DNA of 40,988 nt from a bacterium (GTDB lineage Bacteria > Actinomycetota > Coriobacteriia > Coriobacteriales > CADBOM01), in NCBI GenBank assembly GCA_024698685.1, contig JAILQZ010000067.1, positions 73,787-114,774 of the forward strand, in the 5' to 3' direction. Positions 3,750 to 26,262 of this stretch are shown here, piece after piece; positions within the stretch are counted from its first letter, which is position 1, and each line of letters opens with the position of its first letter. Position numbers and translations under genes: made by a program. The notes below the pieces were generated by a model. It had not been told where the DNA came from and made no database searches. It saw only the letters and a program-made list of their open reading frames with translations.

Positions 3750-6308
3750 TTGATTCCAGAGTACGATGCTAAGGCCATAGAGGCAAAATGGCAAAAGGTT
3801 TGGGAAGAGACCGAAGCATTCAAGGTCCAGGAGGATGAGTCCAAACCGACCAAGTACGTCCTCGAGATGTTCCCGTATCCATCGGGCGACATCCACATGG
3901 GTCATGTGCGCAACTACACGATCGGCGACGTGATCGCCCGCTATTCGAAGATGCAGGGCTTCGACGTGCTCCATCCGATGGGATGGGATGCCTTCGGCCT
4001 GCCCGCAGAGAACGCTGCGATAAAGAACAACAGCCACCCCGCCAAGTGGACCTACGCCAATATCGAGACCCAGCGCGAGAGCTTCAAGCGCATGGGCTTC
4101 TCCTACGACTGGGACAGGACCGTCGTTGCTTGCGACCCCGAGTACTACAGGTGGGGCCAGTGGATCTTCCTGCAGTTCTGGAAGAGGGGTCTGGTCGAGC
4201 GCAGGAATTCCCCCGTGAACTGGTGCCCAACCTGCGAGACCGTCCTCGCCAACGAGCAGGTCACCGAGGGCGAGTGCTGGCGCTGCCATAGCGCGGTGGA
4301 GAAGCGCGACCTAACGCAGTGGTACTTCAAGATCACCGACTACGCGCAGGAGCTGCTCGACGACCTCGAGAAGCTCGGAGGCTGGCCTGAGCGCGTCAAG
4401 CAGATGCAGGCCAACTGGATCGGCCGCTCCGAGGGCGCCGATGTCGACTTCATGCTCTGCGACATAGACGGCAACGCTCCCGCCGAGCCCAGCGAGCTCG
4501 ATACCATAACCGTCTTCACCACCAGGCCCGACACTCTCTTCGGATGCAGCTTCTTCGTCGTATCGCCTGAGTACGAGCGTCTCGATTACATCATGGAAGG
4601 CTCGCCCTTCGTTGCCGAGGTCGAGCAGCTCAAGGAGGAGGCCTCCAAGGTATCCGCCGTCGAGCGCGCTCAGGGCAATCGCGAGAAGCATGGCGTCTTC
4701 ACCGGGCGCTACGTCGTCAACCCGATCAACGGCGAGAAGGTTCCGGTTTGGGTTGCCGACTACGTTGTCGCCGACTATGGTACAGGCGCCGTCATGGCGG
4801 TGCCGTGCGGCGACCAGCGCGACTTCGAGTTCGCCCGCAAGTACGATCTGCCGATCATCCCGATCATCCTCGAGAAGGACGATCCGCTGTTCGAGAAGCT
4901 CGACGGAGTCTCCGAGCGCATCGTCGACACCGTCGATTGGGAGAACGCCTACGAGGCGGAGGGCATCCTGGTTCAGTCCGGCAAGTACACCGGCATGACC
5001 GGCGGCAAGCACTCCGAGGCCGTCGATGCCATCATCGAGGAGCTGCAGTCCAAGGGTCTCGGCCACAAGACGATCCAGTTCAGGCTGCGCGACTGGCTGA
5101 TCAGCCGCCAGCGCTACTGGGGCAACCCGATCCCCGCGATCTACTGCGAGCACTGCGGCCTCGTTCCCGTGCCCGAGGAGGATCTGCCGGTCCTGCTGCC
5201 CGACGACATCGACCTCTCCGCAGGCGAGCTCCTTGCAACGCACGAGGGCTTCGTCAACACCACGTGCCCGATCTGCGGCGCGCCGGCCAAGCGCGAGACC
5301 GATACGATGGACACCTTCACCTGCTCGAGCTGGTATTACCTCAGATACACCGATCCGCACAACGACCAGGCTCCATTCGATCCGAAGAAGGCTAACCGTT
5401 GGATGCCCGTCGACCAGTACATCGGCGGCATCGAGCACGCGATCCTTCACCTGCTCTACAGCCGCTTCTTCACCAAGGTTCTGCGCGACATGGGCATGGT
5501 CGACTTCGACGAGCCATTCACCAACCTGCTCTGCCAGGGCATGGTCAAGGATGAGAAGGGCGAGACGATGTCGAAGTCCAAGGGCAACGTCATAGCGCCC
5601 GAGGACATGATCGCCCGCTATGGTGCCGATGCGGTGAGGGCCTACATCCTCTTCATGGCTCCGCCCGACAAGGACCTGATCTGGGACGAGGGTGGTCTCG
5701 CTGGTCTTTACAAGTTCCTGAATCGCGTATGGCGCACCGTTTACCAGTTGGTTGGTTCGGAGCCGAGTGAGAGCCAAAGTGGGGCTGAGATCGCATCTGA
5801 GGAGCTTGAGAAGGCAAACAAGGCCCTCCTTAGGGAGATGCACAGGGTCATCGGCAAGGTTACGGCTGATTTCGGCCGCTTCAACTTCAACACGGCCATC
5901 GCGGCGCTGATGGAGCTCGTCAACTCGATTTCCAACTACCTCAAGGTTCCGCCCGCGCAACGCGATGCCGATCTGTGCGCTGTTGTCGCTCGCAATCTTG
6001 TCATCCTGCTCTCGCCGATAGCCCCTCATTTCTCCGAGGAGCTCTACGCCGAGGCTCTTGGCGGGGAGGGGAGCGTCGGTGACCTCGAGTGGCCCGAGTT
6101 CGACAAGGCGCTCGCCGCGGCCGATGAGATCGAGATCGTCGTCCAGATCAACGGCAAGATCAAGGGGCGCGTGACTATTCCCGCCGATGCTGCTCAGGAT
6201 GATGTGGAGCCGCTGGCCAAGGACATGCTGGCAGATCAGCTTGCCGGCAAGGATATCAAGAAGGTAATCTTCGTACCGGGCAAGCTCGTGAACATAGTTG
6301 CGAAGTAG
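3750..6308 (+). CDS. leuS: Leucyl-tRNA synthetase
   Basis: An 852-residue class I aminoacyl-tRNA synthetase that charges tRNA-Leu. The HIGH-type motif is [11 protein letters not shown] near residue 45, followed by a zinc-type pair (CPTC and CWRC, residues about 157-180), the CP1 editing domain with [10 protein letters not shown] and GTGAVMAVP, and the KMSKS-type loop TMSKSKGN near residue 608. The C-terminus contains the usual anticodon and tRNA-binding region ending in [12 protein letters not shown]. The length is normal for bacterial LeuRS. The start is a TTG at 3750, chosen because CAGGAGGC lies a proper distance upstream and the protein begins [15 protein letters not shown], the expected family start. 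The gap to guaB is 25 bases, too short for a T-box leader. The next gene starts 9 bases after the stop. Confidence 0.97.
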
Positions 6309-6317
6309 GGGAGCGAT

Positions 6318-6815
6318 ATGAGCCAGATTCTAAGCATCGATGGACAGCAGATCTCAGTTGGAACAGACGAGGGCGGAATCATCGTCGTAGGCCCAGAGGC
6401 ATTCAATTATCCCAATCCGATGGTTGGCGATTGGGTGAACATCTACCGCGATGGCGAGAGAGTCGTCATCGCCATGACCGACGATCCTGCGGCCTATTAC
6501 CAGGACAGCAATCCCTATTCGAGCTATGAGCAAGTTACCTCAAGGGTCTACGGAACAGGGAAGCAGGTTGAGGTGGAAGGCACCTCTATCAACAAGCATG
6601 TCTTCGTATGGATCGGAAATTTCCTGTTCGGCATGCTTGGAGTCGACAGGTTCCTTCGCGGCCAGATCGGCCTCGGCATCCTGAAGCTCTTCACTGGAGG
6701 CGGCTTGGGGATCTGGGCGCTCGTCGACTGGATCATTTCGATCACGAAAGCATACGGCGGCGCGTTCATCAACAACCAGAATCTCATCTTCGTCGATGGG
6801 AAGTACTCCCGATAG
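6318..6815 (+). CDS. TM2-domain membrane protein
   Basis: A 165-residue protein of unknown role. Residues 1-90 are soluble, with no motif I recognise. From about residue 93 a TM2 domain starts ([20 protein letters not shown], then a second hydrophobic segment [20 protein letters not shown]), giving two membrane helices joined by a short charged turn with the family's D-R-F motif. It lies 9 bases after leuS and shares its direction, so it is probably translated from the same message, although no functional link to leucyl-tRNA synthetase is evident. A ribosome site GGGGAGCG precedes the ATG. TM2 proteins are widespread in bacteria and mostly uncharacterised, so no function is assigned. Confidence 0.85.
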
Positions 6816-6856
6816 GGGAGCAGATAGCGTACCGATCAGCTAATCGATCTAAAAGT

Positions 6857-6884
6857 GCGGGCGTCGGAGAATTTCGACGCCCGC
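6857..6884. terminator. Ten-base-pair stem-loop between convergent genes
   Basis: A perfect inverted repeat GCGGGCGTCG / CGACGCCCGC encloses an 8-base loop. It lies 41 bases after the TM2 gene. On the + strand no U-tract follows; on the - strand the stem is followed by ACTTTTAG. It may serve the rightward leuS/TM2 transcript, the leftward marR transcript, or both. Confidence 0.6.
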
Positions 6885-7134
6885 GTCATGTGAATCACTA
6901 TTCGATGCAATGAATTCGCTTGCGCGCGCGGGCGAATCAGAATAACTGAAACGCTAATTCTCCAAGAGGGGAAGTGGCCTTGAAAGTCCATTTCCCAGCC
7001 TCGTACCTGACTATCATTCATAACTTTACATAACATATATTATCGAGTTAATCAATATATATGCGCAGGTGAGGGGCCATATATGTAAACGCAAATAAAC
7101 GAATAAGACTCTCAAATCGATTCTGAAGCTCGAT
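6885..7134. other. AT-rich spacer, no gene seen
   Basis: About 250 bases between the stem-loop and the end of marR. The part around 7020-7110 is strongly AT-rich (repeated ATATAT, TTAATCAATATATAT, AAACGCAAATAAACGAATAAG). I see no credible reading frame, RNA or repeat. It would be the 3' untranslated region of marR if the stem-loop ends that transcript. Confidence 0.5.
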
Positions 7135-18978: not shown

Positions 18979-19698
18979 TCAGAAGCGAGACTCCACTGCA
19001 GCACGGATATCGGGATCGATGTCATCGGGGTTGAACGGCGGCAACTCGACCGCAGGTGCCGCAGCAGCCTCGGCTGATTCGGCTGGCTTCTCCCCGACTG
19101 CCTCTGACTCGACGGCGATGCTCTCCGCAACCTCTGCAACGGCATCGGCAAGCTGATCGCCGACGTCAGCAGCTGCTGCGCGAATGCCTTCGAAAGCCTT
19201 CTCGAGCTTGCCGTCGATAGCCGCCTTGGCCGAAGCCAAAGTGTTGAGAACCCTATCGACGGCCTCTCCTATAGAGACGTCATCATCCTCCTCGCCTTCA
19301 CCCTCGCTGCTCTCGGAATCGGAAGCGAAGTCGGCGATGCGCTCCTCGATGTCGGCTTTCTTCTCTTCGATGATCTCAGCTGCGATCGCTGCGTTCTCGG
19401 CGATGGTTTGCTTTGCCTCCGAGGCGTTCCTGGCAACCTGATCGGCGATGATCTGGCGAGCAACCTCGATCTTGGATTGCAGCTGCTCTGCACCCTGGCT
19501 GATGGCGGGACGAGCGGAGAAGACCGTGGACTGGAACTTCTGAGCGCCCTTCTGAGCATAATCCTTGCCCTTACCGTAGACACCTGAAGCCGCACCCTTG
19601 ACATCGGAGATGGTCTCCATGCCGGACTTTGGCGCGAGCAGGATGCCAGCGGCGATGCCCGCCGCAGCTCCCAGTGCGAAAACGATACCCTTGTTCAT
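18979..19698 (-). CDS. YtxH-like membrane-anchored protein
   Basis: A 239-residue protein beginning with one glycine/alanine-rich membrane segment (IVFALGAAAGIAAGILLAPK, residues about 5-23), followed by the KSGMETISDVKG stretch typical of YtxH-type proteins. Most of the rest is predicted helix: alanine-rich heptad-like repeats (residues 45-120), an acidic linker SSEGEGEEDDD, a second helical region, and a Pro/Ala/Glu tail ending DPDIRAAVESRF. It probably sits on the cytoplasmic face of the membrane with a long helical body. I start it at ATG 19698, five bases after GGAGG; an ATG at 19710 lacks a ribosome site. YtxH proteins are linked to general stress in Bacillus; no such control is visible here. 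Confidence 0.8.
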   Translation of the reverse strand: MNKGIVFALGAAAGIAAGILLAPKSGMETISDVKGAASGVYGKGKDYAQKGAQKFQSTVFSARPAISQGAEQLQSKIEVARQIIADQVARNASEAKQTIAENAAIAAEIIEEKKADIEERIADFASDSESSEGEGEEDDDVSIGEAVDRVLNTLASAKAAIDGKLEKAFEGIRAAAADVGDQLADAVAEVAESIAVESEAVGEKPAESAEAAAAPAVELPPFNPDDIDPDIRAAVESRF

Positions 19699-19939
19699 AT
19701 CTACCTCCATATCTTCAAGCTGCTATCAGCGCGCCTGCGCGATTTGCAGCGATTGTCTTTCATATCCGGATGCTTATTCTACCATGCTTTGCCTTTTGAG
19801 CGCTCAATGGGAAGCCTCGACCTCAGAATTTCCATACGCAGCGCATTTAAGCCACAGATTTACCGCGCCAGGAGGCCTGTGACGAAGATGTACTAGAATC
19901 ACAACGTTTGGGATTGGAAGGACGTCGAGCGCATACCAT
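19699..19939. other. Divergent spacer between the YtxH-like and flippase-like genes
   Basis: About 240 bases with no reading frame worth reporting. It must hold promoters for both genes; no near-consensus pair stands out by eye. GCGCGCCTGCGCG near 19730 is a short GC-rich inverted repeat. Confidence 0.4.
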
Positions 19940-21063: not shown

Positions 21064-22041
21064 CTAAGAGCGTTTGACGGCCTTGTCGAGCAAGCTGGAG
21101 AGCACCTCTCCAAGGGTGAGGCCTGCTGCCTTGCAGGCAGTTGGGAAGAACGAGCGCTTGGTCATGCCAGGAGAGACATCGATCTCGAGGATCTTGGGTG
21201 CGCTGCCGTCCCATATCATGTCGACGCGAGCAAGGTCCCTGCAACCGAAAGCCTTGAATGTCTCGATTGCCGCGGCGTTGATTTTCTCTATGGCCGCTGG
21301 ATCGGCAAGCTGCTCGCTCTTGGGCGGAGCAAAGAATTCGACTCCATCGGAATCCATTCGGTCGCTCGTGTCGAAGAACTCATGGGAAGAGCAGATCTCG
21401 ACGGGAGGAAGCACGAGCACGTTGCCATCGGCATCCTCGATCATCGAGACGCCAAGCTCAACGCCGTTTACCCACTCCCCCACGATGACCTCATCGTCGA
21501 ATGAGAGCGCATCCAGGATGCCCGAAGCGAGTTCATCGAAGCTGTGAACCTTGTGCAGGCCCATCGCTGAACCGCCGCAAGCCGGCTTAACGACCATCGG
21601 ATAGCCGGGAATGTGCTCCTCGTAGCTCTTGAGCGCGCATGCTGCTCCCATGCTCTTGAAGGCATCGACGGAAAGGCACATCTGCGCCGGCCAGCAAGCC
21701 GATCCGGATTCGCCAATGCGATGCGACGAGATGACGTGCGGAATGTTCGACTTGTTCCTTGTAACCCTGCATACGGGAGCCGTGCAGCCAACGTATGGGA
21801 TATTGAGGAACTCGAGCAGCGATTGGATGGTTCCGTCTTCGCCATGCTTTCCATGAAGTGCGATATACGCAACGTCGACGTTCTCGCTCTTGAGCGTGTC
21901 GACCAGGTCCGAAACCGTGTCGAGCGGCAGGACCTCATGGCCCATCTCCTCGAGCACCTGGCAAACAAGTTTTCCGCTTTCAAGGGAGAATTCGCGCTCG
22001 AAGGACTGGCCTCCCATGAGCACCGCTACCTTGTAACCCAT
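21064..22041 (-). CDS. D-alanine-D-alanine-ligase-like ATP-grasp ligase with altered substrate loop
   Basis: A 325-residue ATP-grasp protein of Ddl architecture: VLMGGQSFEREFSLESG (N-terminal substrate glutamate), ALHGKHGEDGTIQSLLE, a lysine ATP ligand in MVVKPACGGSAMGL, and C-terminal LEIDVSPGMTKRSFFP. Classic Ddl joins two D-alanines for peptidoglycan. Several positions differ from the usual pattern. The omega-loop K-Y pair that selects D-Ala is replaced by R-M in EFFDTSDRMDSDG, the metal-binding E-x-N-T reads E-I-D-V, and the central linker (TRNKSNIPHVISSHRIG) is unlike the usual S-x-D-K region. It could be the cell's Ddl in a divergent lineage or a ligase for another amino acid. Start: ATG 22041 after AAAGGGG. 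It follows the aminotransferase gene by 11 bases. Confidence 0.82.
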   Translation of the reverse strand: MGYKVAVLMGGQSFEREFSLESGKLVCQVLEEMGHEVLPLDTVSDLVDTLKSENVDVAYIALHGKHGEDGTIQSLLEFLNIPYVGCTAPVCRVTRNKSNIPHVISSHRIGESGSACWPAQMCLSVDAFKSMGAACALKSYEEHIPGYPMVVKPACGGSAMGLHKVHSFDELASGILDALSFDDEVIVGEWVNGVELGVSMIEDADGNVLVLPPVEICSSHEFFDTSDRMDSDGVEFFAPPKSEQLADPAAIEKINAAAIETFKAFGCRDLARVDMIWDGSAPKILEIDVSPGMTKRSFFPTACKAAGLTLGEVLSSLLDKAVKRS

Positions 22042-22052
22042 CAAAACCCCTT

Positions 22053-23300
22053 TCAGTACTTCAGAGCTCCGGCATTGACGAATGCGCGGCAAAGCTCGAC
22101 CCTGTCTTCGATAACGCCAGCAAGTCGCCTTATTGCCTCTGCGATGGCATCGGGCTCCTCGTAGCAGAAGGCGATGCGCATTGAATTGCGCCCCTCGCCA
22201 TTGGGATAGCAGCCATCTCCGGGCACATATGTGACTCCGCTGTCGAGTGCGAGCGAGAGCATCTGGCCCGTGTCGACGTACTTCGGCAGCGTGACCCAAA
22301 GGAAGAAACCGCCATCTGGATGCGTATAGCTCGCCTCGGGCGGGAAATGCTCGTTCAGAGCCGCCATCATGGCATCCTTGCGCACGCTGTAGGCTGCAAT
22401 GAGCCTTTCGAGCGTCTTGCGCCATGGCGTATCGTTGAAGTAATGCTCGACGACAACCTGGTTAAGCGCAGATCCGCAGAGGTCCGTCCCCTGCTTGGCG
22501 AGGTTGATCTTGTTGAGGATAGGCTGGGGCGCGATGATCCAGCCTGTACGGAGGCCCGGCGCGAAGACCTTGGAGACCGTGCCGAGATAGATGACGTTCT
22601 CGTCGAGCTTTCGCAGGCAGGGCACCGGCTCGCCGCTGTAGCGGAGCCTGCCGTAGGGATCGTCCTCGATGACCAGCACTCCGAACCTGTTGGCGAGTTC
22701 AAGGAGCTCCTTTCGGCGCTCGAGAGACATCGTAACGCCTCCAGGGTTTTGGAATGTCGGAATCGTGTAGATGAACTTCGGCAGGCTCTCCCTGTTCGAT
22801 TCGAGCGCTTCCTCGAGAAGATCCGTTCGCATGCCGTCGTCATCGAAGGGAATGCCGACGATACTAGGCTCATATGCGGAGAATGCCTGCAGCGCGCCAA
22901 GGTAGGTAGGCGCCTCGGTGATGATCGTGTCACCTGGGTTGATGAAGGTCTTCCCGAGGAGATCGAGAGCTTGCTGAGCGCCAGCTGTGATGATGATGTC
23001 GTCAGGCGTGACCTCGATTTCGAAGTCGCGCATGAGCATGCAGATGATCTCCTTGGTTTGGATGCGTCCATCAGTGCTGCCATACTGCAACGCGGAGATG
23101 CCCTCCTCGTCAATGGCGGCCGCGACGGCCTTGCTGACAAGGTCGAGTGGGAGTTTGCCTATGTCGGGCATACCGCCTGATAGCGAGATGATGTCGGATC
23201 TTGAGGCCGCAGCGAAAAGGTCCCTCACTGCGCTTCTGCGCATCGTCTGCATGCGCGAGGAGTAGCTTGAGCCCCATTCGTCGAAAACCATCCGTGTCAT
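22053..23300 (-). CDS. PLP-dependent class I/II aminotransferase (2-aminoadipate/LysN-like)
   Basis: A 415-residue cytoplasmic fold-I aminotransferase. The N-terminal ISLSGGMPDIGKLP and YGSTDGRIQTKEII, then ITAGAQQALDLLGKTFINPGD (PLP phosphate site), TIPTFQNPGGVTMS (conserved Asn), VIEDDPYGRLRY (conserved Asp and Tyr) and LGTVSKVFAPGLRTGWI (Schiff-base Lys) are all in place. This pattern matches the MocR-related LysN group acting on aminoadipate, aromatic or branched amino acids; no DNA-binding domain is fused. The ATG at 23300 is preferred; a TTG at 23330 and an ATG at 23291 are alternatives since no ribosome site decides. It is directly upstream of the Ddl-like ligase and could supply or recycle that enzyme's amino acid. 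Confidence 0.9.
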   Translation of the reverse strand: MTRMVFDEWGSSYSSRMQTMRRSAVRDLFAAASRSDIISLSGGMPDIGKLPLDLVSKAVAAAIDEEGISALQYGSTDGRIQTKEIICMLMRDFEIEVTPDDIIITAGAQQALDLLGKTFINPGDTIITEAPTYLGALQAFSAYEPSIVGIPFDDDGMRTDLLEEALESNRESLPKFIYTIPTFQNPGGVTMSLERRKELLELANRFGVLVIEDDPYGRLRYSGEPVPCLRKLDENVIYLGTVSKVFAPGLRTGWIIAPQPILNKINLAKQGTDLCGSALNQVVVEHYFNDTPWRKTLERLIAAYSVRKDAMMAALNEHFPPEASYTHPDGGFFLWVTLPKYVDTGQMLSLALDSGVTYVPGDGCYPNGEGRNSMRIAFCYEEPDAIAEAIRRLAGVIEDRVELCRAFVNAGALKY

Positions 23301-23361
23301 TTCGTGATTCCAATCATCTGAATTCCCCAAGCGCCCAACCTGCTTGGCGCTTCTCAGTCAA

Positions 23362-23805
23362 TCATTGTACGCCAATTGAAGCGGCAAGTTCGCTTATGAG
23401 CCCACAAGCATCGCATACGGCTTTGAAGCATTCAGAGCTGTTTGAAGAGGAGATTGTAAGGCGCGTTAACCCAGTGGCCCTGTCCAGCCAGACCGTGTAT
23501 CCGGCGAATGCGGTTGTGGACGACGGGTTAGCTTCCCTATCGCGTTCAACGAGAATGTCCAGCGCAACGTGCTCGAGTGCATGCGCGAGCGATGTGCCGG
23601 CAAGTCCCTCGCCGTGATCGGAGCAAGCATGCTTGGCGAGAGCTGGCCTGGCAGATAGCAGAGCTTCGGAGAGCTCAGGACTCGTAGTTGTGCGATCGCC
23701 AACTATGCGAACCTTGAAGTCGGTGGCCGATTCGCGCTCACGAATGTCCTCTATGTAAAAAACCCCACTTTCAAAGCGGGGTTTCGAAACGGTCATATCA
23801 TCCAT
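23362..23805 (-). CDS. Stand-alone protein resembling the N-terminal domain of cyanophycin synthetase
   Basis: A protein of about 147 residues. The segment RPALAKHACSDHGEG, then GTSLAHALEHVALDI, corresponds to the core of the CphA N-terminal domain (pattern P-x-L-x-x-H-x-C, then G-T-x-x-x-H-x-x-E-H-V-A-L-E). A strand-rich end (AFAGYTVWLDRATGLTRLTI) then fits its GVYxVVxEY region. The ATP-grasp and Mur-ligase domains of real CphA are absent: the frame ends after about 65 further residues. In CphA this domain holds the enzyme together and binds polymer. Start is uncertain (ATG 23805 or 23796), 5 bases after the RlpA-like stop, suggesting translational coupling. An intrinsic terminator lies inside its first codons. 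Codon use and frame are convincing after that point. Confidence 0.72.
   Translation of the reverse strand: MDDMTVSKPRFESGVFYIEDIRERESATDFKVRIVGDRTTTSPELSEALLSARPALAKHACSDHGEGLAGTSLAHALEHVALDILVERDREANPSSTTAFAGYTVWLDRATGLTRLTISSSNSSECFKAVCDACGLISELAASIGVQ
23757..23784 (-). terminator. Intrinsic terminator inside the start of the CphA-N-like gene
   Basis: On the - strand, AACCCCGCTTT and AAAGTGGGGTT pair (one G-U wobble, 3-base loop) and run straight into TTTTTT. It lies 27 bases after the stop of the RlpA-like gene, a normal place for its terminator, but spans codons 8-17 of the following reading frame. Confidence 0.8.
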
Positions 23806-23810
23806 TTGAA

Positions 23811-24440
23811 TCAAGCATATCTCCATTGAAGGGTGACGACCGTGTTGCCGATGCCCAAGGCGTTGGCAACTGCAGGCTGGAGGTCGAAGGTTCTTCCGTA
23901 CTGCTCGAAGTTTCCACGGTCGCAGACGGTCGCGATGCAGGTCTTCCCGTTGTAGGAGAGCTCGATCTGAGTGCCCAGTGGAATCCAGCTGGGAGCAGCG
24001 ATGCCCATTGAGCTTTCGGTAACGACGCTGCCATCTGCGCAAGTCTCATAGAGGAAGCCGTCGCCGATTCCATAGACGCTGGCAGATGCATCGACCCAGC
24101 CGTTCTCGTCCTTGTTGACAACAACCGCGAACGGGGCCGCGTCCACCTTCTCCTCGACGGTTTCGATGGCCTCGGTCCTGCTGATAGGAGCCTCGAGTTG
24201 GATTAGGTTGGAAGTGTCGACATCCTGCGTCTCGACCTTGATCTTATCGGCGGCCTTGGCGTCGGTCTCGACGAAATATCTGCTCTGATGGGTGGTGGTG
24301 ATGCCCAGGGTTGCGCTAGAGCCGGTGAACGATGCGACCGCCAGCGGCACTGCCGCAGCTAGCATCAGGCATGCGATGAGTGCAACAGCCATAACCCTGG
24401 CTGCGCTCTTCTTACCTATGTTGTTCCTACCCTTGCTCAT
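23811..24440 (-). CDS. Secreted RlpA-like double-psi beta-barrel protein
   Basis: A 209-residue exported protein. A signal or anchor segment (residues about 14-37, VMAVALIACLMLAAAVPLAVA) follows a basic start, then a variable stretch to about residue 115. The C-terminal 90 residues form an RlpA-type barrel: WVDASASVYGIGDG, MGIAAPSWIPLGTQIEL, CIATVCDRGNF and GRTFDLQPAVANALGI, with the catalytic-type Asp in CDRG and the DLQPAVA helix. RlpA and related 3D-domain proteins act on or bind peptidoglycan glycan strands outside the membrane. Two cysteines, in YNGKTCIATVC, could form a disulfide in the barrel. It is followed by the CphA-N-like frame and the terminator. Enzymatic activity is not assured. 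Confidence 0.85.
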   Translation of the reverse strand: MSKGRNNIGKKSAARVMAVALIACLMLAAAVPLAVASFTGSSATLGITTTHQSRYFVETDAKAADKIKVETQDVDTSNLIQLEAPISRTEAIETVEEKVDAAPFAVVVNKDENGWVDASASVYGIGDGFLYETCADGSVVTESSMGIAAPSWIPLGTQIELSYNGKTCIATVCDRGNFEQYGRTFDLQPAVANALGIGNTVVTLQWRYA

Positions 24441-24939: not shown

Positions 24940-26262
24940 TCACTTCTCGTCAACATCTTGTGGTGCGGGATTTGCAGGTTCAAGTTTATGCACGTTGAGC
25001 AGGGAAATCCTTCTTCTTCGCATAGCCTGTACTGTGAAGGCATACCCATCGATCTCGAACCGCTCGCCCGTTGACGGGACAAAATCGACCGCATCCATAA
25101 GCCAGCCGGCGATGGTGTCGTATTCATCCGACTCCACGACGGGAAAACCCTCTTCGATGGCGTCGTCGACCGGGAATCGACCATCGATGAGCCACTCGTC
25201 CTCGGAAAGGCGCGTGATGTACTTCCGGTCGGGGTCGTACTCGTCTGCGATCTCCCCTACCACTTCTTCGACGATATCCTCAATGGAGAGGATGCCGGCG
25301 GTTCCACCATACTCGTCCACTACTATGACGAGCTGATTGTGCTCGTTTTGCATCTCCTGGAGAAGCGGGAGGATTCCCTTGGTTTCGGGAACGAAGATAG
25401 GTTCGCGCATGAAGTTGACGATGAGCTCGTCCTCCCTATCGTCCATAAGCGGAACCAACAGGTCCTTGACCATGGTAACGCCGATGATCTTGTCGTGGTC
25501 ATCATGGAAGACCGGTAGTCTCGAGAAGCCGGTGCCGCGCATCCTGTCGATAACCTGCTTGACAGTCATGGTGTCCTCAGCGAGGACCATGTCTACACGC
25601 GGAACCATGATCTCTCGGGCAACCGTGTCGCCCAGATCGAAGATCTCCTCGATCATTCGCTTCTCCTCATCGAGCAGCGTATCCTGGTTGTTCACGAGCA
25701 TTATGATCTCATCCTCGGAAACAGGTTCGGGCTCATCTCCGGACTTCACATGGAATATCCGAGCAAGCAGATTGGTAGATGCCGACAGGAATCTGACGAT
25801 AGGCCTGAAGACCTTCTCGAAGCCGATCAGAAAGCCTGCGACGCGCATGGCGACCTTTTCAGACGATGCCATTGCGATGCGTTTCGGGAACAGCTCGCCG
25901 AGTATGAGCGAAACGTAAGCCACAAGCAAGGTGATGAGCGCAACGGCGATGAAGCTGCTCGCCTTGGTGAGCCAGGGGATGCCGAAGCTGGCAAGCCAAT
26001 GGGCAACGGGATCGGAGATCGTGGTTGCGGCGACCGCCGATGTCGCGAAGCCTACGAGCGTGATGGCAACTTGGATGGTCGCGAACAGGTTATCGGTTTC
26101 GGAGGCGAGCTGCAGGGCCTCCTTTGCATGGGGAACTCCTTCGTCAACGGCTTGCTGGAGCTTGGTCTTCCGTGCATTGACAAGCGCCATCTCCGACATG
26201 GAGAAATAACCGTTGAGGATAACGAGCAGTATCGTGATGATTATGCAAATCGCTGTGAGCAT
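24940..26262 (-). CDS. CNNM/CorC (hemolysin C) family membrane protein
   Basis: A 440-residue membrane protein. An N-terminal DUF21/CNNM region (residues 1-190) has four hydrophobic segments and the conserved NGYFSMSEMALVNARKTKL, ATTISDP and LILGELFPKRIA motifs. A CBS pair follows (residues about 200-330; REIMVPRVDMV, GFSRLPVF, IIGVTMVKDLL, QLVIVVDEYGGTAGI). A C-terminal CorC_HlyC domain (about 350-425, WLIDGRFPVDD) completes the standard order. Family members export Mg2+ or Co2+ or resist them; the hemolysin label is historical. The ATG at 26262 has only a weak ribosome site. It lies 174 bases after yqeY on the same strand, so it may have its own promoter. Confidence 0.93.
   Translation of the reverse strand: MLTAICIIITILLVILNGYFSMSEMALVNARKTKLQQAVDEGVPHAKEALQLASETDNLFATIQVAITLVGFATSAVAATTISDPVAHWLASFGIPWLTKASSFIAVALITLLVAYVSLILGELFPKRIAMASSEKVAMRVAGFLIGFEKVFRPIVRFLSASTNLLARIFHVKSGDEPEPVSEDEIIMLVNNQDTLLDEEKRMIEEIFDLGDTVAREIMVPRVDMVLAEDTMTVKQVIDRMRGTGFSRLPVFHDDHDKIIGVTMVKDLLVPLMDDREDELIVNFMREPIFVPETKGILPLLQEMQNEHNQLVIVVDEYGGTAGILSIEDIVEEVVGEIADEYDPDRKYITRLSEDEWLIDGRFPVDDAIEEGFPVVESDEYDTIAGWLMDAVDFVPSTGERFEIDGYAFTVQAMRRRRISLLNVHKLEPANPAPQDVDEK

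Follow-up and report, generated by a model that had tools for sequence, protein, structure and literature searches.

A 40,988-nt stretch of DNA from a member of the Coriobacteriales (lineage CADBOM01; assembly GCA_024698685.1, contig JAILQZ010000067.1, positions 73,787 to 114,774), hereafter called the window, carries between positions 21064 and 24440 four tightly packed genes on the minus strand. They encode an RlpA-like secreted protein, a small protein related to the N-terminal domain of cyanophycin synthetase (CphN), an aminotransferase (AT) and a paralogue of D-Ala-D-Ala ligase (DdlX). We asked whether these genes constitute a split cyanophycin synthetase, in which CphN serves as a scaffold for a separate ligase, as a first-pass annotation had suggested, or whether they represent something else. 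That annotation was right about the number of genes, their strand, nearly all their limits (DdlX spans 22041-21064) and their domains, and each of the four proteins belongs to a known fold family; its scaffold mechanism was not supported. We lean towards the view that two units lie side by side within a conserved neighbourhood of envelope genes, a CphN metallopeptidase and an AT-DdlX dipeptide module. CphN would belong to the CphA1 N-domain family as a cytoplasmic protein standing on its own, and its substrate would be some peptide or isopeptide distinct from cyanophycin. AT would supply (or consume) an amino acid, which DdlX would ligate at the expense of ATP to form a dipeptide different from D-Ala-D-Ala, the product of the canonical Ddl.

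The active site and distribution of CphN

CphN (147 aa; 23362-23805, minus strand) contains an H-A-C ... H-A-L-E-H motif, and we saw no signal peptide in the window protein. Its score against PF18921 was 24.4 bits, below the cut-off of 27 bits. A chance match was ruled out by three observations: PF18921 is matched by 38 of 39 CphN homologues (best E 2.9e-16), a set of alignment columns is invariant, and a profile of 27 CphN relatives finds solved CphA1 in the PDB with E-values of 5.7e-14 and 3.3e-10. The N domain of CphA1 harbours a cryptic metallopeptidase-like site, Cx19HxxEH, which cuts cyanophycin into primers (PMC9262961). When 39 CphN proteins with 22-31% identity to the window protein were aligned, the invariant positions (39/39 each) were the equivalents of H57, C59, T75, H79, E82, H83 and T101 of SuCphA1, which comprise the His and Cys of HxC, the two His and the Glu of HxxEH, and one Thr before and one after the latter motif; the equivalent of E87 was Asp or Glu in 37/39. 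The HxC...HxxEH pattern was present in all 93 CphN proteins that we inspected. An AF2 model of CphN (pLDDT 90.7, pTM 0.87) places the motif on a single long helix.

The positions that contact cyanophycin present a different picture, since among the 39 proteins S60 is kept in one, E90 in none and Y110 in nine, and R70 falls into a gap in all 39. A search of the window genome for CphA (TIGR02068) returned only partial matches of the Mur and carbamoyl-phosphate-synthase kind, none above the cut-off, and a search of the same genome for cyanophycinase returned none. Because the contact side chains are mostly lost and the genome has neither CphA nor cyanophycinase, CphN appears to be a metallohydrolase with a substrate other than cyanophycin. 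Its metal would probably be zinc, held by Cys-His-His, with the Glu acting as general base. Compared with the CphA1 N domain (PF18921; SuCphA1 7LG5/7TXU; profile homology at E 3e-10 to 6e-14), CphN has the same C-H-H metal ligands, HxxEH motif and second-shell residues H57, T75 and T101. It differs in being a stand-alone protein of about 140 aa without G or M domains, in the spacing between Cys and HxxEH (Cx18 in most members and Cx13 in the window, versus Cx19), in its cyanophycin-contact positions and in occurring, in the window genome, without CphA. We also considered the M16 inverzincins, which combine HxxEH with a downstream third metal ligand and a large bilobal fold. This assignment was rejected, as the candidate third ligand of CphN is an upstream Cys, the protein has only 147 aa and no M16 Pfam family matched.

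The survey of the class covered 300 sampled genomes at least 90% complete, which we searched with the 27-relative profile. We took the sampled class to be Coriobacteriia from the genus names at the named loci, many of which belong to the Eggerthellaceae (Gordonibacter, Eggerthella, Paraeggerthella, Slackia, Adlercreutzia and others); a locus search with a narrower CphN alignment reached almost only this family. CphN matched in 294 of the 300 genomes and was almost always single-copy. In a draw over the phylum, nearly all profile matches from outside the class were in open frames as long as full CphA (about 920-1330 aa); two were in shorter frames of 235 and 262 aa, one of which runs into masked sequence. 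Since the matches outside the class are nearly all CphA-sized, the stand-alone form is a trait of Coriobacteriia within the Actinomycetota sampled. A plasmid search with CphN gave no match, and PHROGs held nothing for CphN or DdlX.

Could CphN nevertheless lack catalysis and act on DdlX as a scaffold or regulator, in the split arrangement of CphA-N and ligase? Its gene adjoins that of DdlX, and in four genomes a degenerate DdlX still lies beside CphN, as if kept for a structural role. We regard this as very unlikely. The catalytic residues are all retained and vary least in a protein that otherwise evolves fast, and CphN, near-universal in the class, persists in genomes without DdlX (e.g. G022, G040 and G137) and in genomes without AT. 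These features favour reading CphN as an enzyme over reading it as a scaffold. A split cyanophycin synthetase was rejected on further grounds: the ligase is of the Ddl type, the genome has no CphA or cyanophycinase, many genomes show CphN uncoupled from DdlX, and AT and DdlX travel as a pair away from CphN.

It was not until 2022 that the N domain of CphA1 was recognised as catalytic, and its activity was then linked to the priming of cyanophycin. That a stand-alone protein has this site in invariant form, and is near-universal in a class spanning gut and environmental bacteria (Eggerthella, Gordonibacter and Slackia among them), points to an enzyme family of more general scope, of which the CphA1 N domain would be a single branch. 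Of note, the CphN proteins of two families, f2 (loci L044-L046, L057 and L194) and f4 (L189-L193), extend at the C-terminus into a long tail that is acidic or of low complexity, and at the majority of these loci cphN directly follows a CNNM/CorC gene.

Co-retention of the aminotransferase with a divergent Ddl paralogue

DdlX (21064-22041, minus strand) matches Dala_Dala_lig_C with an E-value of 1.3e-35 and scores under the NCBIfam cut-offs for Ddl (PRK01372/TIGR01205). It has the Ddl fold and about 30% identity to Ddl (E. coli DdlB, 2DLN/1IOW), and is a Ddl-type ATP-grasp protein and not a CphA G domain. A 453-aa ligase frame beginning at 22425 was discarded as an over-long open reading frame call, the homologues starting at MGYKVAVLMGG. 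Residues are numbered after E. coli DdlB, whose sequence as used here agrees with the PDB family matches. The window protein keeps E15, H63, K97, K144, S150, R255, D257, E270 and S281, among them the ATP/Mg and first-substrate residues, and the divergence that the first-pass annotation had ascribed to the ligase lies in the substrate lid. Here E148, Y212 and K215 are changed relative to Ddl (E148G, Y212T and K215R), and in the window also Y216 and N272 (Y216M and N272D). Intact DdlX proteins keep E15, H63, K97, K144, S150, R255, D257 and S281, mostly also E270 and N272 or Asp at that position, the copies of family f2 differing at 270 and 272; at 148 they carry G or Q, and at 215 R or M. K215, which like Y216 belongs to the lid/omega loop, is kept by every canonical Ddl in our residue table, and all intact Eggerthellaceae DdlX beside AT combine R at 215 with a residue other than Tyr at 216.

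In a phylogenetic tree, a branch supported at 100/99 separated all DdlX proteins from canonical Ddl, E. coli DdlB and Van-like ligases. The window genome contains the second, canonical Ddl that the first-pass annotation had considered, as a fragment cut by the contig end (G000:C50) with the lid motifs YDFEAKY and ETNTIPGMT, which rules out that DdlX is the sole Ddl. A second Ddl occurred in every sampled genome with an intact DdlX and was canonical within the class. By hand count, DdlX was present in about 86 of 201 sampled class genomes, comprising most genomes of other orders, many Eggerthellaceae, some of family f2 and none of f4. From the altered lid we infer that DdlX ligates a substrate different from that of canonical Ddl.

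AT (22053-23300, minus strand) is a class I/II pyridoxal-phosphate aminotransferase (Aminotran_1_2, E 7.8e-31). Its end lies at 22053, and homologues point to an ATG at 23300 or 23291 as the probable start. The closest solved relatives by sequence are the Pyrococcus horikoshii multi-substrate/kynurenine-type and LysN-type 2-aminoadipate aminotransferases (3AOV, 1X0M, 1WST and 2EGY; E down to 1.7e-109). What sets AT apart from these LysN and kynurenine-aminoadipate enzymes is its constant presence with intact DdlX in the genomes sampled. Among 22 chosen genomes, an AT orthologue was found in all seven with an intact DdlX and in none of the 15 in which DdlX was absent or degenerate. At CphN loci, ten core residues were intact in 53/53 DdlX proteins beside AT, and several were lost in four of the five without AT (Fisher p ~1e-5 for each association). 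The pair is located away from CphN in four genomes (G057, G044, G194 and G105). It also occurs in Actinomycetota other than Coriobacteriia, where we read 15 loci: the two genes were directly adjacent in 10 and no more than about 1.3 kb apart in the remaining five, and no CphN was found in the genomes carrying the pair. As the pair moves, is lost or decays together and occurs without CphN outside the class, AT-DdlX is a unit separate from CphN and an ancient, older module of the phylum.

These patterns also bear on a more cautious explanation, namely that the neighbourhood is stable but functionally loose, with DdlX as a back-up D-Ala-D-Ala ligase and AT as a housekeeping aminotransferase. The block does contain genes of unrelated role (SerS, YtxH, PRC-barrel and CNNM), and vertical inheritance tends to preserve gene order. 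However, AT and DdlX are kept or lost together, relocate jointly and remain adjacent across several families of the phylum, and the lid residues of DdlX differ systematically from those of canonical Ddl, so that we hold a loose neighbourhood to be distinctly unlikely. The AT-DdlX pair probably makes a non-standard dipeptide. In two of the loci outside the class a PhzF-family gene lies between AT and DdlX (PF02567, E 1e-76 and 7e-56), and in a third the intervening protein is similar to PhzF by sequence. Because PhzF proteins have the diaminopimelate-epimerase fold, this insertion hints at an isomerised amino acid.

Several observations concern individual Ddl relatives. At L239 (PhzF-family gene between AT and DdlX at 6141-7058) and L241 (at 4126-5031), a geranylgeranyl-reductase-like gene lies nearby. 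The degenerate DdlX genes of L069, L073, L179 and L181 have lost several catalytic residues, retain open frames and stand beside CphN without AT; they are possibly pseudoenzymes. One Eggerthellaceae genome (G191) has two DdlX genes, G191:C9 and G191:C86 (L247), the second of which lacks both H63 and S150 as well as an adjoining AT. Extra VanG/VanC-like Ddl paralogues (L199, L200 and L202) occur in some genomes of the order, and two of these have E and K at 215/216.

Relation between CphN and the AT-DdlX pair

CphN does not need the ligase, and AT-DdlX does not need CphN. A direct relation, with CphN cleaving the DdlX product, is possible, and CphN may act on or near the product of the pair. 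In its strict form this would be a coupled system of synthesis and hydrolysis, in which CphN trims or recycles the very peptide that AT and DdlX produce, much as in CphA1, whose N domain cuts the product of the ligase domains, or in VanHAX with its zinc dipeptidase and variant ligase. CphN does directly precede AT-DdlX in the window, in Eggerthellaceae and in several other families of the class, and its metallopeptidase site is invariant. Yet CphN is kept in genomes without AT or DdlX; conversely, AT-DdlX occurs outside the class where CphN is lacking, and within the class it can lie at a different place from CphN. Strict coupling therefore seems unlikely to us.

Our preferred view of two neighbouring units, in which CphN is an enzyme and DdlX has a changed substrate, has to be weighed against several findings. 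The link between CphN and AT-DdlX is one of adjacency, and it is broken in several lineages. The window CphN has a five-residue deletion in the loop preceding HxxEH and has lost F67. A PDB fold search with the CphN model gave no significant match, CphA included, so that the fold link between CphN and CphA1 rests on sequence profiles. DdlX proteins from orders other than Coriobacteriales and from outgroups mostly keep Y216, which makes a changed substrate less certain in those lineages. The AT family is promiscuous, and we therefore leave the substrate assignment of AT wide. Finally, not every loss of AT and DdlX is an independent event in the phylogeny, and the four degenerate DdlX may form one clade. 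A bolder version of two neighbouring units is more doubtful, namely that CphN is an independent, near-universal and probably essential metallohydrolase of Coriobacteriia acting on a non-cyanophycin (iso)peptide, together with an ancient AT(-PhzF)-DdlX module producing an undescribed envelope dipeptide.

Two known systems resemble parts of the locus. In the bacilysin pathway, BacF and BacD, an aminotransferase and an ATP-grasp amino-acid ligase, yield a dipeptide, and AT-DdlX follows the same logic; BacD belongs to an ATP-grasp family different from that of the Ddl-family DdlX, and we saw no antibiotic cluster around DdlX. VanHAX encodes a variant Ddl together with a zinc peptidase, a likeness to CphN and DdlX. 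Family scans revealed no relation between CphN and VanX, and the locus differs from VanHAX in having an aminotransferase instead of a dehydrogenase, in being a chromosomal core gene and in that CphN occurs without the ligase. Our literature search found no description of a stand-alone CphA-N protein in Coriobacteriia or of an AT-PhzF-Ddl module. For Actinomycetota, the AT-DdlX pair is a concrete lead to a so far uncharacterised pathway for a dipeptide, close to Ddl, which is an antibiotic target.

Neighbouring genes and local layout

An order confined to close relatives would have spoken against the first-pass annotation, but the gene order holds across the class: CNNM, or RlpA, or SerS with a membrane protein precedes CphN, which is followed by AT-DdlX where present and then by YtxH, PRC-barrel, VTT or polysaccharide deacetylase genes. 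The RlpA-like gene is upstream of CphN in the window and in orders other than Coriobacteriales, with SerS and a membrane protein in its place in Eggerthellaceae; in two families of the order that have no AT-DdlX at that place, CNNM/CorC is directly upstream. YtxH and PRC-barrel genes also flank AT-DdlX in several loci of Actinomycetota outside Coriobacteriia. As several neighbours have envelope character, this setting suggests a role in the envelope, which the products of CphN and AT-DdlX may serve.

The RlpA-like protein (23811-24440, minus strand) has a hydrophobic, signal-like N-terminus and a putative C-terminal double-psi beta-barrel. Its DPBB_1 match is weak (E 1.1e-3; 19.6 bits against a curated cut-off of 28.8), and the homologue at L047 reaches 37 bits, above this cut-off. 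A YtxH-like envelope protein (18979-19710, minus strand) is the conserved neighbour downstream of the block, and a CNNM/CorC-type membrane protein (24940-26262, minus strand) lies upstream. The ATG of cphN is 5 nt past the RlpA-like stop codon and the start of ddlX 11 nt past that of AT; given these short gaps, co-transcription is likely. An Rfam scan across the locus gave no match. Directly after the RlpA-like stop codon, within the first codons of cphN (23785-23757, minus strand), we noted a terminator-like hairpin followed by a T run (AACCCCGCTTTGAAAGTGGGGTTTTTT; RNA fold -16.3 kcal/mol, z -1.8), which could attenuate transcription into cphN-AT-ddlX.

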